From positions 372,001 through 436,000 of the forward strand of contig NZ_CP020946.1 in the NCBI RefSeq assembly GCF_002208115.1: a stretch of 64,000 nt of DNA. The letters are read 5' to 3'. Below, piece after piece: positions 57,128 to 64,000 of this stretch. A model generated the notes under the pieces. The model did no database searches, was not told where the DNA came from, and worked only from the letters and a program-made list of their open reading frames with translations. Each line of letters opens with the position of its first letter. Position 1 is the first letter of the stretch. The position numbers and the translations under genes are program-made. Source of the DNA: Bdellovibrio bacteriovorus. Lineage in GTDB: Bacteria > Bdellovibrionota > Bdellovibrionia > Bdellovibrionales > Bdellovibrionaceae.

Positions 57128-57481
57128 ATGATTCAGGCTTTTTTGATTCTGCTGATTTTTCAGTTGTTGGGAGAGGTTGTGGTTCACCTTTTCCGATTAT
57201 TTATCCCCGGCCCGGTGCTGGGTATGGTCTTCTTCTTTATAGCCCTGTTGGTGCGCCCTTCTTTAAAAGACAAGGTGGAAATCTTGAGCCGTTCCATCAC
57301 GGCTCATCTGGCCTTGTTCTTTGTTCCGGCTGGGGTCGGAGTTGTTGAGTATTTCGATCTGTTTGGAAAATTCGGCGTGGGTATGGTGGTGACGGTTTTG
57401 ATCAGTACCGTCATTACTTTGGGGATGACGGCCTTCGTGTTTCATCAACTGATGAAAGTCGGCACCAAGGAGTCCCCATGA
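57128..57481 (+). CDS. CidA/LrgA family membrane protein
   Basis: A 117-residue integral membrane protein with four predicted helices; the family is holin-like and was linked to control of autolysis and to pyruvate uptake in Gram-positive bacteria. Seen: LFIPGPVLGMVFFFIALL, a family hallmark, and LALFFVPAGVGV. GAGGA precedes the ATG. It overlaps the LrgB/CidB gene by 4 bases, as usual. Which exact role it has here is unknown. Confidence 0.92.
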   Translation: MIQAFLILLIFQLLGEVVVHLFRLFIPGPVLGMVFFFIALLVRPSLKDKVEILSRSITAHLALFFVPAGVGVVEYFDLFGKFGVGMVVTVLISTVITLGMTAFVFHQLMKVGTKESP

Positions 57482-58158
57482 TTGAGTTAGGCGCCTTGAT
57501 CATGACCCTGGGGTTTTATCTGGCATCCCGTCGTATCAGTGCGTGGGGGAGGGACAATCCTCTGTTAAGTCCTCCGGTGATTTCGATGTTTGCGATCATC
57601 GCGGTTTTACTGATCGCGAAGATCCCTTATCGCGATTACTTCCAGGCCGTGCGCCCGATTCACTTTATGCTGGGACCGGCGACGGTGGCGTTGGCTTTGC
57701 CGTTGTATAACCAACTGGATCGTCTGCGCCGGGTGCTGGTTCCGTTGATGGTGGCTTTGGTGATGGGCTCGGCGGTGGGAATTCTCAGTGCTGTGTTCAT
57801 CGGGGCCTTCATGGGACTGCCGCACGAGGTGCTTTTGGCGCTGGCTCCGAAATCTGTGACCACACCAATTGCCATGGGCATTGCCGAAAAAATCGGTGGG
57901 GCTCCTTCGCTGGCGACCGTCTTTGTGATGATCACGGGGATTGTTGGTGCGCTGGTGGCCACCACCGTGATGAAGCTTGTGCGGGTGAAAGATCCGGTGG
58001 TGAAGGGTTTTGCGATGGGACTTGCCGCCCATGGACTGGGAACCGTGCGGGCCTTTCAGATCGGCGAGATGGCCGGGGCCTTTGCGGGGCTTGCGATGGC
58101 GCTCAACGGTTTGATGACCGCCATCATTGTGCCTTTGATACTTTCGTTGATTCCTTAA
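57478..58158 (+). CDS. CidB/LrgB family membrane protein
   Basis: A 226-residue multi-helix membrane protein and partner of the upstream gene. Family hallmarks are visible: LGPATVALALPLYNQ, APKSVTTPIAMGIAEKIGG, and AHGLGTVRAFQIGE. Its stop overlaps the convergent hemH stop by 4 bases. Confidence 0.93.
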   Translation: MIELGALIMTLGFYLASRRISAWGRDNPLLSPPVISMFAIIAVLLIAKIPYRDYFQAVRPIHFMLGPATVALALPLYNQLDRLRRVLVPLMVALVMGSAVGILSAVFIGAFMGLPHEVLLALAPKSVTTPIAMGIAEKIGGAPSLATVFVMITGIVGALVATTVMKLVRVKDPVVKGFAMGLAAHGLGTVRAFQIGEMAGAFAGLAMALNGLMTAIIVPLILSLIP

Positions 58159-59162
58159 AGGCTCTTCACCAGATCGGCAAAGCCCTGAACCCATTTCGGG
58201 TTGTCGTTCACGCAGGGGACCAGATAGTACTGGTCGCCGCCGTGTTCGTGGAAGGTCTCTTGTCCGCCGATTCCGATTTCTTCCAAAGTCTCGATACAGT
58301 CAGCCACAAAGGACGGGCAAATCACGGCGATATTTTTTTTGCCGGTTTTGGCCAGTACTTCCAGACTGTGATCGGTGGCAGGTTTCAGCCATTCTCCACG
58401 TCCCAGACGGGACTGGAAGGCCACACTCCAGTGACTTGGAGCCAGATTCAGAGATTCTGCAATCGCCGTCGCAGTGGCAAAGCACTGGGCGCGATAGCAG
58501 TTCTTGGCGCAGGCGTTTTTTTCAAAACAGCAGTCTTCGGTGGTCAGGCAGCCGGGAATTCTTCGCACATGGCTTTCAGGCAGACCGTGGAATGAAAACA
58601 GATAGTGATCGACCTTTTTGTCCTGCAGGGTTTCTTCGGTCAGTTTCACCGAGGTTCCAATGAAAGAAGCATCATCGAAAAAAGCCGGCAGACGGCGCAG
58701 AGGAGTCGTCAGGTGAAGTTTCTTGGCTGTTTTCTCTGCCAGTTTGAATGAGCTTCCATTGGTGGCTTCAGCATACTGAGGGAACATAGGGGCAATCAGG
58801 ATTTCATCAACACCGGCTTGCTGCAGTTCCTTCAGGGCTGATTCCACGGACGGTTCACTGTACTGCAGACCCACTTTCACGACGAAACCGTCTTTGAGTT
58901 CCTGCTGCAAAAGTTCGGCAAATCGACGTGTGTACACGGCAATCGGAGAACCTTCCTTCATCCACACTTTTTTGTAGTTTTCAGCCGAGAAGGGCGCGCG
59001 ACGGGGAACGATTAAAAGATTCACCAGAGGCCAGCGCAGAACGAAGGGCAGATTGATGACCTCTTCATCCATCAAAAACTCGGTCAGATACTTTTTTACG
59101 TCCGGCACTTCGTAAGAGCGGGGGCTGCCAATATTGATTAACAGAAGTCCTTTTTTAGCCAT
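58155..59162 (-). CDS. hemH: ferrochelatase with internal Cys cluster
   Basis: A 335-residue enzyme that inserts iron into protoporphyrin, the last step of heme synthesis. The catalytic His192 lies in SFHGLPESH and the Glu in GRGEWLKPATD. Residues ~205-227 hold six Cys (C205, C211, C212, C218, C222, C227), an insertion absent from ordinary ferrochelatases and consistent with the [2Fe-2S] cluster known in some microbial ones. The ATG at 59162 overlaps hemG by 8 bases. It is the last gene of the heme operon. Confidence 0.95.
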   Translation of the reverse strand: MAKKGLLLINIGSPRSYEVPDVKKYLTEFLMDEEVINLPFVLRWPLVNLLIVPRRAPFSAENYKKVWMKEGSPIAVYTRRFAELLQQELKDGFVVKVGLQYSEPSVESALKELQQAGVDEILIAPMFPQYAEATNGSSFKLAEKTAKKLHLTTPLRRLPAFFDDASFIGTSVKLTEETLQDKKVDHYLFSFHGLPESHVRRIPGCLTTEDCCFEKNACAKNCYRAQCFATATAIAESLNLAPSHWSVAFQSRLGRGEWLKPATDHSLEVLAKTGKKNIAVICPSFVADCIETLEEIGIGGQETFHEHGGDQYYLVPCVNDNPKWVQGFADLVKSL

Positions 59163-60372
59163 GTGCGCTCGCAATCTTTTCAGCGATCAAATCGCTGCGT
59201 TCCAGAATTTTGCTTAAACCAATGCCGCTCAGGTAATTGCCATGCAAGTACAAACCTTGTGGTTCCGGCACTTCAGCCAGATCCGCCAGAGCATTTTCCA
59301 GGTTCAGATCATAAAACGGCAAAGCCTTTTTCCAGCGGTTGATACGATATTCCAGCAGGGTGTCTTTCTGACCCAGAATACGGAAGCGTTCTTCCGCCAG
59401 AAGCTTCAAAAGATCACCGTCAGAAAGATCCAGCAAAGCTTCTTCCTGCTGCCCACCCAGAATCCAGGTTTCATTGTAAGTTTTGTCGCGGTCCTTAAAG
59501 ATATAGGAATTCATCAGAACCCCCAAAGTCTTCAGGTCAAATCCACGAGGGATCAGGCAGCCGAAGCCTTTGTATTTCTCTTGGGGCTTGGCGAAGAACA
59601 ACGTCACACTCATCAGTGAAGACATCTGAATGTTGCCAAGAACCTTGGAAAAATCAGGGTGTTTTTTGGCCAGCAACTGGGTTGCAGCCCTGGCGGAAGT
59701 GGCGACCACCACCGGACCTTGCAGGGACTCAAGGCTTACCTGAGAATTCAGGTGAATCTTCACGCCCAGTTCCTGCAAACGGGTATGCAGGTGATCGACC
59801 AGATCCTGCATGCCGCCCGGGCCGGTCAGAAGACCTTTGTACTTGCTGCGTTTGTTCCCGGAAAACAGCGGGCCCAGAATCAGACTGGCACTTAGATGTG
59901 TGATCTCGTTGCCATAGATTCCCTGCATCGCAGGTCCCAGCAAAAATCTGGTTGGCGCCTTTCCGATTTTGCGCTCGCCCCAGTTCAGCAGGGTTTCGCC
60001 GGCCTGAGGGCGCAGGGCTTTTTTACCCCCGGTCAAAACGCGCGGAAGCACCCGGCCCATCAGGGCCAGGGTCTCAAGGAAGGACAGCGGCCACGCTTTC
60101 GGAGTGTTGCGGAAGAGGAAGCGTTTTTTTGATGTTTCCAGCGGATAGCTGGGAGTAATGCCGAGTTCCGCAAAAAGGCCTTCGGCTTTTTCAGTGCGGA
60201 TCAGGGCATTGGCGGCACGTTCGGCAATTCCGTAAGGTGTCTGGTCAGTACCCAGTAATCCTCCGACACGGTCCGAGGATTCATAAAGTTCTACCTGAAA
60301 GCCTTTTTGGGCGAGCCTCAGGGACACTGTCAGTCCCGCAAAGCCCGCGCCGATCACATTCACTGTTTTCAT
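59155..60372 (-). CDS. hemG: protoporphyrinogen oxidase (HemY type)
   Basis: A 405-residue FAD enzyme that oxidises protoporphyrinogen IX. Seen: the FAD loop VIGAGFAGLTVSL, YESSDRVGGLLGTDQ, GPAMQGIYGNEITHLSASL and the C-terminal LYLHGNYLSGIGLSKILERS. It is the oxygen-dependent HemY type, although next to it lies the oxygen-independent HemN, a common mix. It overlaps hemN by 4 bases and hemH by 8. Confidence 0.94.
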   Translation of the reverse strand: MKTVNVIGAGFAGLTVSLRLAQKGFQVELYESSDRVGGLLGTDQTPYGIAERAANALIRTEKAEGLFAELGITPSYPLETSKKRFLFRNTPKAWPLSFLETLALMGRVLPRVLTGGKKALRPQAGETLLNWGERKIGKAPTRFLLGPAMQGIYGNEITHLSASLILGPLFSGNKRSKYKGLLTGPGGMQDLVDHLHTRLQELGVKIHLNSQVSLESLQGPVVVATSARAATQLLAKKHPDFSKVLGNIQMSSLMSVTLFFAKPQEKYKGFGCLIPRGFDLKTLGVLMNSYIFKDRDKTYNETWILGGQQEEALLDLSDGDLLKLLAEERFRILGQKDTLLEYRINRWKKALPFYDLNLENALADLAEVPEPQGLYLHGNYLSGIGLSKILERSDLIAEKIASAHG

Positions 60373-61718
60373 ATGGATTGAGAGAAGATTTTGGTCTGTG
60401 GTTGTTTGGTTTTCAAGCGCTCATCAAAAAATGCACAGGCATTTCTCAGGAACGGGCGACCGGCTTCGTTCACCATCAGCTTGTGATCCTTGATTTCAAC
60501 CAGTTCGTCTTTGATCATTTCAGCCAGGAATTCCTTGGATTGATTTTCCTGAGCTTCATTGACGAATGACACCTCAAAGTTCGTCATCAGATTCAAGATC
60601 TGTTCACGACGGATTTTGTCTTCTTCGGTTAGGATGTGGCCGCGCAAAGTTGGCAGGCGGCCTTCATTCAAAGCGGCCTCGTAAAGCGGCAGCACCTTTT
60701 CGTTCTGATGGAAGCTAAACGGAGTTTCAGAGATCGAAGAAACACCCATGCCCAGCAACACATCCGTGCGCTGATCGGTGTAACCCATAAAGTTCCTGTG
60801 CAGGCGCTTTTCTTTCATCGCAATGCAAAGATTGTCCGTCGGAAGGGCAAAGTGATCCATGCCCACTTCCACATAACCGCCTTCGATCAGGATGCCACGG
60901 GCGATTTCATACAATCTGCGCTTTTCAGAAGCTTTTGGCAGATCCTCGTCTTTAAACAGGCGCTGAGCCGGTTTGATCCAAGGAACCAGAGCAAAGCTGT
61001 ACAAAGCAATACGGTCCGGGCGCAAAGCCACGGTCGCTTTCGCCGTTTCGGTGATGGATTCCGGAGTCTGGCGAGCCAAACCATAGATCAAGTCAAAGTT
61101 CACGGAAGTGTAACCCATGTCGCGCGCGTCCTGAGTCAGCTTCTGGGTGATTTCCAAAGGCTGAATACGATTCACCAGGCGCTGCACTTCCGGATGGAAA
61201 TCCTGAACACCCATACTGACACGGTTGAAGCCCAGCTCGCGCAAAGCTTTCAACTGAGCGGCATTGGTGCGGCGAGGATCCACTTCGATGGAGCCTTCAA
61301 AATCGTTTGTGTCGATTTTCACGCGGGAAAGAATCGGTTTCAAAAGCTGAGTCAAAGCATCTGCGGAAAGGAAGGTCGGCGTGCCGCCACCCAAGTGGAT
61401 GTGCTTCAGGGGTTTTTCCAAAAGCTCAGGAACCTGATCCAGATACAACTGCCATTCTTTCAAAACCATATCCACATACGGTGTTTCACGCTTGTGGTCT
61501 TTGGTGATGATGTTGTTGCAGCCGCAGAAAGTACAAAGACTTTCACAGAAAGGAATATGCAAGTACAGGGACCAGCCCCCAGTGCCTTCTTTCAAAGTGG
61601 CGCGCAGATGCTGCACCCATTGATCCGTCGTGGGATTGGTTTCCCAGTACGGCACAGTCGGATAAGAAGTGTAGCGGGGAACTGGTACGTCGTATTTCGC
61701 CAATAGATCTTTCATCAT
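60369..61718 (-). CDS. hemN: oxygen-independent coproporphyrinogen III oxidase
   Basis: A 449-residue radical-SAM enzyme that decarboxylates coproporphyrinogen III. The iron-sulfur motif is CESLCTFCGC; YLHIPFC, HLGGGTPTFLS, VSMGVQDFHPEVQ and the C-terminal HemN domain confirm it. It is an ATGA overlap with hemE (61715-61718). It allows heme synthesis at low oxygen, such as inside prey. Confidence 0.96.
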   Translation of the reverse strand: MMKDLLAKYDVPVPRYTSYPTVPYWETNPTTDQWVQHLRATLKEGTGGWSLYLHIPFCESLCTFCGCNNIITKDHKRETPYVDMVLKEWQLYLDQVPELLEKPLKHIHLGGGTPTFLSADALTQLLKPILSRVKIDTNDFEGSIEVDPRRTNAAQLKALRELGFNRVSMGVQDFHPEVQRLVNRIQPLEITQKLTQDARDMGYTSVNFDLIYGLARQTPESITETAKATVALRPDRIALYSFALVPWIKPAQRLFKDEDLPKASEKRRLYEIARGILIEGGYVEVGMDHFALPTDNLCIAMKEKRLHRNFMGYTDQRTDVLLGMGVSSISETPFSFHQNEKVLPLYEAALNEGRLPTLRGHILTEEDKIRREQILNLMTNFEVSFVNEAQENQSKEFLAEMIKDELVEIKDHKLMVNEAGRPFLRNACAFFDERLKTKQPQTKIFSQSI

Positions 61719-62734
61719 GACAGCACCTCGCGAACAGTATCTACGAACAGTTTCACGTTCTTTTCAGGAGTTTTCGGCAAAACACCGTGACCCAGACCGC
61801 TCACCCAGCCGGCGCGCTGTTCTTTGCTCATGTTCTTCATGGGCGCAAGGTAGGTGTGCATCGCTTTTTTAAAATCAGCATCATCCATGAACAGCAAGCT
61901 TTGGTCGAAGTTGCCCTGAACGAAGCCTTTGTTCTGGATGTTGAAGCAATCCGGAAGATAATTTCTATGGTCGAAGCCCTGACCTGCCCATGGCAGTGCT
62001 CTGAAGGCGTCATTGAAGAACACCGCCTGGGTTCCCTTGGAATAGTAGCCGATCTTGCCCGGATAGTCCTGGGACAGACGGGTCAGTACCGGCTGGATCC
62101 ATTCCTGGAAGAACAGAGGTGAAACTTCACCGGCAGCGGTGTCGAAGATCATCACGATCTCTACGCCACCTTCCAGTTGCAGGCGGATGTTTTCTTTTAG
62201 CAGCGGATACATTTTTTCCAGGAACTGCGGGAACATCGGAGCCAGTTTCTTGGACTGGATCAAGGAACCCGCGTGAGAACCTTCCACCGCGTAAACGAAC
62301 AAAGTCCAAGGACCGCCCACAAAGCCAATCAGACTTTTATTGGAAGGCAGAACTGCGCGAGTCGCCTGGACCGCTTCTTTTTGGAAGTGCATGAATTTGA
62401 CAGCTTCTTCCACGCCACCCAAGGTGCCGATGGTTTCCGGAGTCAGTTTGAAACCCAGTTGCGGGCCGTGATCCGTGTACTCAAGGCCCATGCCCAGAGC
62501 TTCCAGTGGATACAGGATGTCGCTAAAAAGGATGGATACGTCGAAATCAAATTCCGCCACGGGACCACGAGCCACTTCTGCCGCCAGATCCGCGCGTTTG
62601 CAAAGCTGGTCAAAGGAGTGATTGGCGCGCATGCCCTGATAGTGTTTGTGATAGCGGCCTGCCTGGCGCATGAACCAGATCGGTGGGACAGCCTGAGGAG
62701 TTCTTTTAAGTGCGTTGTGGAATAAAGTGTTCAT
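61715..62734 (-). CDS. hemE: uroporphyrinogen decarboxylase
   Basis: A 339-residue enzyme that makes coproporphyrinogen III. Seen: the N-terminal signature PPIWFMRQAGRYHKHYQG with the substrate Arg residues, ILFSDILYPLEALG with the catalytic Asp, and FVGGPWTLFVYAV. It overlaps the response regulator gene by 4 bases at its start and hemN by 4 at its end. Confidence 0.97.
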   Translation of the reverse strand: MNTLFHNALKRTPQAVPPIWFMRQAGRYHKHYQGMRANHSFDQLCKRADLAAEVARGPVAEFDFDVSILFSDILYPLEALGMGLEYTDHGPQLGFKLTPETIGTLGGVEEAVKFMHFQKEAVQATRAVLPSNKSLIGFVGGPWTLFVYAVEGSHAGSLIQSKKLAPMFPQFLEKMYPLLKENIRLQLEGGVEIVMIFDTAAGEVSPLFFQEWIQPVLTRLSQDYPGKIGYYSKGTQAVFFNDAFRALPWAGQGFDHRNYLPDCFNIQNKGFVQGNFDQSLLFMDDADFKKAMHTYLAPMKNMSKEQRAGWVSGLGHGVLPKTPEKNVKLFVDTVREVLS

Positions 62735-63405
62735 GTTGCCTCCTCAGTGGACCATTGATAGCCGACGCCGCGAACAGAACGGATGTGTTTTTCTCCGTCA
62801 TCGCCCAAAAGCTGGCGCAGGCGTACGATAATATTGTCGATAGTGCGATGGCTGGGGTTTTTATCAACGCCCCAGATTTCGTTCATAATTTCATCACGGC
62901 TTAGTACCCGTGGTGATTTCTCAATCAAAAGCTGCAGGATCTTCAGATCCGTCACCGGCGGATATTCAATCTGTCCGGTTTTCTTGGTCACGGACATCTG
63001 CGTGAAGTTCACCACGCAGGAATCCAGTTGCAGTTCGCGGGTCGGGGCATGGGCATCCAGCACATGCTTTACGCGAATCAAAAGCTCTTTCAAATGGAAA
63101 GGCTTGGGGATGTATTCTTCCGCGCCCAGCTCAAACCCCTGCAGGCGGGATTCCGCATCGGCTTGCGCCGTCAGGAACAGGAACAAAATGGGAGCGGTGG
63201 CTTTTAGTTTCGCCGCAAGTTCAAAACCGCTGCCGTCCGGCAGGCCCACATCCAGAATTGCCAGGTCATAGTCCTTGGTTTTTGAAAACAGGGACCAGGC
63301 CTCGCTCAGGGATTTCGCCCAGGAAACTTCATAGTCCCTTTTCAGGCGTTCATTCAGGGTTTCGCCCAAAGAGATATCATCTTCCACCAGAAGGATTTTT
63401 CTCAT
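62731..63405 (-). CDS. OmpR-family response regulator
   Basis: A 224-residue regulator. The receiver has the acidic pair (VEDD), the phosphorylated Asp52 (AILDVGLPDGSG) and Lys in YIPKPFH. The C-terminal winged helix (LSRDEIMNEIWGVDKNPSHR, RLRQLLGDD, IRSVRGVGYQW) binds DNA. It overlaps the kinase gene by 4 bases and hemE by 4, so its output is tied to heme synthesis. It may control its own operon (inference). Confidence 0.95.
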   Translation of the reverse strand: MRKILLVEDDISLGETLNERLKRDYEVSWAKSLSEAWSLFSKTKDYDLAILDVGLPDGSGFELAAKLKATAPILFLFLTAQADAESRLQGFELGAEEYIPKPFHLKELLIRVKHVLDAHAPTRELQLDSCVVNFTQMSVTKKTGQIEYPPVTDLKILQLLIEKSPRVLSRDEIMNEIWGVDKNPSHRTIDNIIVRLRQLLGDDGEKHIRSVRGVGYQWSTEEAT

Positions 63406-64000
63406 GGCAAAGTCCCTTCAATTTCAATGTGGGATTTGAAGCCTTCGTTTTCCTTCGATTCAAACCAGATGTCGCCGTTCATTTTTTCCAAAAGACGTTT
63501 TGTCAGCAGCAGGCCAATGCCGTTGCTGCGAACATCCTGGGACATCAGAATCTCAGAGCCTAGCTTTTTTAGAATACCCTTAAAGCCCAATCCGTCATCC
63601 TGGATGACCAGTTCGATGCGGCCTTCGCCATGCGGGCGCACACGGATCTTCACCGTGGTGGCTTTGCCGTGCAGGACTGAATTCTGCAGAAGATTGCGCA
63701 GAACACTCAGTAGGGCGCGGCGATCACCCAGGATTTTGGCTTCACGTTCAAGCTCCACAGTAAGTTCAGAGAACTCACTGCGCAGACTGGACAGAAGATC
63801 ACTTAAAGACACTTGTTCTTTCAAGAGCTGACCGGCCTCAAGATTTGCCAGCAGCAGGGAGTTTTCAAGTTGCAGATCCAGACGCTGAATGTCCTGAATC
63901 AGGCGTTTCATCACCGGGTGGGATGTTGTGTTCAAATCCTCTTCCAGCACCTCGGCCTGCAGGCGCAGACGGGCAATAGAGGTTTTAATGTCATGGCTGA
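63402..64000 (-). CDS. sensor histidine kinase (partial, N-terminus beyond the window)
   Basis: Only the catalytic half is in the window. At the edge the H-box SHDIKTSIARLRL (His phosphorylation site) is visible, followed by the dimerisation helices and the ATPase with N-box (SVLRNLLQNSVLHG), G1 (IQDDGLGFKG) and G2 (SNGIGLLLTKRLLEKMNG). The sensor part lies outside, so the signal is unknown. It is translationally coupled to the response regulator. Confidence 0.93.
   Translation of the reverse strand, partial: SHDIKTSIARLRLQAEVLEEDLNTTSHPVMKRLIQDIQRLDLQLENSLLLANLEAGQLLKEQVSLSDLLSSLRSEFSELTVELEREAKILGDRRALLSVLRNLLQNSVLHGKATTVKIRVRPHGEGRIELVIQDDGLGFKGILKKLGSEILMSQDVRSNGIGLLLTKRLLEKMNGDIWFESKENEGFKSHIEIEGTLP

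Follow-up and report, generated by a model that had tools for sequence, protein, structure and literature searches.

The closest described counterpart of the locus examined here is the two-component system HemKR of Leptospira. There, phosphorylated HemR binds the sequence TGACA-N6-TGACA (hem-box) and activates hemA, and ALA triggers the phosphatase activity of the kinase HemK; the candidate signal is ALA or a metabolite derived from it, and HemR phosphorylation is unaffected by iron excess or lack (PMC11426443). HemR targets also include heme oxygenase and transport genes, ExbBD/TonB (PMC11426443), and mutants require heme (hemin) or ALA (PMC2266917, PMC11426443). Louvel and co-workers found in 2008 that the periplasmic loop of the kinase is not essential and that added hemin raised the hem genes in wild-type Leptospira, a poor fit to a simple heme-off switch (PMC2266917). 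Because of this rise, and because hemA was not significantly changed in a hemKR knockout, other regulators may act as well. The same paper mentions, as data not shown, that the pair is linked to heme genes in Bdellovibrio (PMC2266917), and the system described below therefore belongs to a known kind, HemKR. The HssRS system of Staphylococcus is similar in exerting heme-linked two-component control and in that sensing is proposed to occur within the membrane or at its interface, but other residues are involved, HssS possesses a true extracellular domain, the system controls heme efflux (HrtBA) rather than synthesis, and no orthology is shown (PMC11237747).

We analyzed a window of 64,000 nucleotides from Bdellovibrio bacteriovorus and read its surroundings over 19 kb of genome, assigning gene identities with Pfam and NCBIfam (Table 1). 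The operon runs in the order hemA, hemC-D, hemL, kinase, regulator, hemE, hemN, hemG, and hemH, with overlaps of 10, 13, 0, 4, 4, 4, 4, and 8 bases; the last value assumes that hemH starts at the ATG at 59162, and a TTG at 59174 would make it 20. The kinase-regulator pair is thus placed centrally in a heme operon of nine genes, with hemL abutting the kinase gene, and hemB is divergent from hemA. A preliminary description of the window had given the genes from the kinase to hemH, their strand, and their overlaps as we find them. It had also described the pair as coupled to four heme genes; the coupling stands, but its extent was underestimated, since hemL, hemC-D, and hemA lie outside the window, upstream of the kinase.

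Table 1. Features of the hem operon of B. bacteriovorus and its promoter, in window coordinates; positions beyond 64000 are extrapolated.
Feature	Position	Strand	Remarks
Hem-box	67992-68007	-	upstream of hemA; exact TGACA-N6-TGACA
Predicted -10	67966-67971	-	upstream of hemA
hemA	67048-67956	-	first operon gene; beyond window edge
hemC-D	65546-67057	-	upstream of hemL; beyond window edge
hemL	64278-65558	-	upstream of kinase; beyond window edge
Histidine kinase, HemK orthologue	63402-64277	-	291 aa; HisKA + HATPase_c; orthologues in Spirochaetota; runs past window edge at 64000
OmpR/PhoB-type response regulator, HemR orthologue	62731-63405	-	224 aa; Response_reg + Trans_reg_C; best PDB match 4q7e, E 5.8e-37
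hemE, uroporphyrinogen decarboxylase	61715-62734	-	PF01208; single copy in genome
hemN, oxygen-independent coproporphyrinogen III oxidase	60369-61718	-	TIGR00538 over cut-off
hemG (name in the preliminary description), FAD-type protoporphyrinogen oxidase	59155-60372	-	TIGR00562 over cut-off
hemH, ferrochelatase	58155-59162	-	final operon gene; TIGR00109 + PF00762 over cut-off

The regulator stop and the hemE start overlap as ATGA, which leaves no room for a promoter or terminator that might separate the two parts of the operon, and this 4-base overlap recurs in 30 of the 59 loci measured. General promoter and terminator scans of the region gave matches at chance level only, and an Rfam scan gave none. 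As had been suggested from the window, the level of the regulator is structurally tied to heme production because its gene is part of the heme operon. The hemC product is extended at its C-terminus by about 210 residues (L002:12546-13184, outside the window) in which Pfam recognizes no HEM4 domain, and across the genome no protein exceeds the cut-off of the HEM4 profile. All ten best Foldseek matches to the AlphaFold model of this extension are HemD crystal structures, with a probability of 1.00 for the first and no E-value <0.001. To judge from this model, the extension most likely supplies the missing uroporphyrinogen III synthase, in cryptic form and fused to HemC.

Sequence comparison makes the regulator an orthologue of Leptospira HemR. 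By far its best match in the PDB is 4q7e (59.5% identity over the receiver domain), which we take to be the HemR of Leptospira biflexa, the name in the database being generic; the identity is level with that of Spirochaetota regulators. The matches obtained by searching named genomes with a regulator profile were mostly paralogues. Against the PhoR/PhoB equivalog models, the kinase and regulator scored 58/334 bits and 132/296 bits, far below cut-off. The kinase shares with that of Leptospira the HisKA domain, two membrane segments, a short periplasmic loop, and an H-x3-T motif (H95/T99 here, H98/T102 in Leptospira); the regulators are alike in being of OmpR/PhoB type, and the pair has hemL on one side and hemE on the other, as it does in L. 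interrogans. The Bdellovibrio pair differs in that it belongs to one operon of nine overlapping genes, in which hemC and hemD are fused and from which hemB diverges. Judged from sequence, every testable defining feature of Leptospira HemKR is found in the Bdellovibrio pair.

Domain searches (Pfam, NCBIfam) and the predicted structure of the kinase revealed only the HisKA and ATPase domains. The sensor domain that the preliminary description had sought beyond the window edge is not there, so that the kinase has none for an unrelated signal either. The predicted structure comprises helices at residues 8-36 and 44-114 separated by a 7-residue turn, the second helix running into the kinase core; HemK would thus have two membrane helices and hardly anything in the periplasm. 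An alignment of 28 orthologues shows W28, M53, E57, H95 (phosphorylatable), and T99 (the phosphatase residue) to be invariant, and the W-W and M-x3-E pattern is also present in the Spirochaetota relatives. The minimal loop, the invariant membrane residues, and the dispensable loop of the Leptospira kinase together point to sensing within the membrane.

An exact hem-box, the regulator binding site that the preliminary description had wished to see located, is positioned 36-51 bases upstream of the hemA start and is one of six exact copies in the genome, so that the candidate HemR site precedes hemA as in Leptospira. Upstream of hemA in 77 loci across the phylum, the best hem-box matched at 10 of 10 positions in 67 loci and at 9 of 10 in 8 more; a reversed control pattern never reached 10/10 in these loci and reached 9/10 in 3. 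An alignment of 60 dereplicated hemA promoters contained one more conserved element, TAnnnT, starting 20 bases after the second half-site and giving the consensus TGACA-N6-TGACA-N20-TAnnnT. With the -10 at this distance, the hem-box occupies the -35 position. The -10 of B. bacteriovorus itself, TAAACC, matches TAnnnT imperfectly. In the pho box, too, direct repeats recur every 11 bases across the -35 position. PhoBR is alike in regulator family and in the period and placement of its repeats, but differs in site sequence, target genes, and signal.

The first possible hemA start codon lies at most 15 bases after the -10 in 73/77 loci (commonest distance 6, median 7), and here it lies 9 bases after the predicted -10 (L002:14956-14971, beyond the window edge). 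In addition, only 3/38 hemA starts are preceded by a Shine-Dalgarno-like 4-mer, versus 178/294 starts of the other operon genes. The short distance and the scarcity of Shine-Dalgarno sequences together predict that the hemA mRNA is probably leaderless.

The link between the pair and the heme genes is far from chance, since related loci from the order and the phylum have the same gene order as far as contigs reach. Among 141 genomes of the order, 89 carry both the kinase and hemE, 7 carry hemE only (several of these are fragmented or incomplete assemblies), and 45 carry neither; all 89 kinase genomes thus have hemE (Fisher p 8e-30, genome kinship being ignored). Repeated loss of heme synthesis in the order is suggested by the genomes lacking both. 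In all 88 cases in which the two genes share a contig, hemE is downstream of the kinase on the same strand, with a gap of 666-1000 bases that fits a regulator. Orthologues, which separate cleanly from paralogues by E-value and coverage of the membrane part, occur in 250/369 genomes of the phylum Bdellovibrionota. The order hemA-C-L-HK-RR-E is kept, as far as contigs reach, in the loci taken from the order and in another 20 sampled across the rest of the phylum, many families being represented; hemN, the oxidase, and hemH come next in most of them, and hemB lies between hemC and hemL in some, which is the gene order of L. interrogans (PMC2266917). The arrangement had been considered unusual, a view that does not hold for a phylum-wide feature also known from Leptospira as Hklep/Rrlep, that is, HemKR. 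Co-occurrence, adjacency, orthology to Leptospira HemKR, and the conserved box at the operon promoter give strong support to the proposal of a pair dedicated to heme.

Very probably, then, the pair is the HemK/HemR of Bdellovibrio, in which phosphorylated HemR would switch on the whole operon, including its own gene, and pathway products would shut it off through the HemK phosphatase. When heme-pathway products are scarce, HemK would phosphorylate HemR, which would bind the hem-box, covering the -35 position upstream of hemA, and recruit RNA polymerase to the -10, 20 bases on. The genes hemA-hemCD-hemL-hemK-hemR-hemE-hemN-hemG-hemH would be transcribed as one translationally coupled unit, with a probably leaderless hemA message. 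As ALA, porphyrin, or heme builds up, HemK would turn phosphatase and the operon would be shut down, closing a loop in which the pair activates the operon that encodes it, while a pathway product turns the pair off. Gene order, orthology, box, promoter architecture, and co-occurrence were established here from sequence; phosphotransfer, DNA binding, hemA activation, and ALA-triggered phosphatase activity are carried over from experiments in Leptospira; the leaderless start and sensing within the membrane are what we infer. Our literature search found no experiment on this pair in any Bdellovibrio and, beyond the Leptospira papers, nothing relevant on a leaderless hemA or on heme regulation in Bdellovibrio. 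A bolder combination is offered tentatively, as possible though on balance doubtful: that HemK represents a phylum-wide kinase family sensing porphyrin or heme inside the membrane through the invariant W and M-x3-E at the outer helix ends, and that the hemA message driven by the regulator is leaderless, which would leave heme synthesis to be set at a single promoter with no translational leader.

The signal might instead be iron, oxygen, or redox state, as the preliminary description had proposed, rather than a metabolite of the heme pathway. Coupling of heme synthesis to iron and oxygen is common, and the kinase core shows weak, sub-cut-off similarity to the RegB/PrrB and ArcB models; however, these matches cover the generic kinase core only, PAS, heme, and Fe-S domains are all absent from the kinase and its orthologues, as is any conserved cysteine, and the Leptospira system responds to ALA or its product and is indifferent to iron supply (PMC11426443). 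We therefore regard such a signal as improbable. Equally, being part of an operon is not in itself proof of regulating it, and a pair co-transcribed with the heme genes could mainly control other genes, its position only tying its dose to the heme supply. Five further exact hem-boxes in the genome would leave room for this, but three of them fall within reading frames and none is repeated across the genus. Moreover, the refined promoter model, allowing one mismatch, found no other site recurring genus-wide, with counts close to those of the reversed control; the known Leptospira HemR site is conserved precisely at the hem operon promoter, and the kinase and hemE are present or absent together, so that a mainly external role seems very unlikely. 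Compared with the Leptospira regulon, which adds heme oxygenase and ExbBD, the predicted HemR regulon of Bdellovibrio looks narrower, dedicated to the single hem operon.

Outside the phylum, 9/393 sampled Spirochaetota genomes contain a kinase match with E 4e-55 or better, which we infer to be from relatives of Leptospira. The kinase, regulator, hemE, and hemN are neighbors in 5 of these 9 genomes, and hemL precedes the kinase in one. The Spirochaetota kinase lies next to RR-hemE-hemN or within hem clusters; in one locus (L214), a perfect box precedes hemA. Another locus (L218, genome G382), from one more lineage, has these parts in a rearranged order, hemH-hemA-HK-RR-hemE-hemN-oxidase-hemC-hemB-hemL, with a perfect box near the hemA start. 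The gene order shared by Bdellovibrionota and the Leptospira relatives could reflect transfer of the cluster rather than common descent, which would be compatible with the HemKR explanation. In a kinase-regulator tree with midpoint rooting, six Leptospira-like pairs form a clade beside Bdellovibrionia and are nearer to it than the main parts of Bdellovibrionota are to each other, but this is a quick tree with an uncertain root and some long branches, and we consider transfer a serious possibility that falls not far short of even. A plasmid search with the kinase gave no match.

Four things appear to be new here: the phylum-wide conservation of the pair along with its operon and site, the way the promoter is built, the invariant motif in the membrane part of the kinase, and the probable lack of a leader on the hemA mRNA. 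For this last control feature, we found no report in the literature searched. Heme synthesis in most of Bdellovibrionota, predatory Bdellovibrio included, would be tied to one dedicated two-component system with a DNA site as in Leptospira, and the membrane motif and promoter architecture make the signal of HemK testable outside spirochetes. At the other end of the operon, two plus-strand membrane genes resembling LrgA/LrgB (57128-58158) converge on hemH, their coding ends overlapping by 4 bases, and an LrgA/LrgB-like pair occupies the same place beside hemH in many close relatives.
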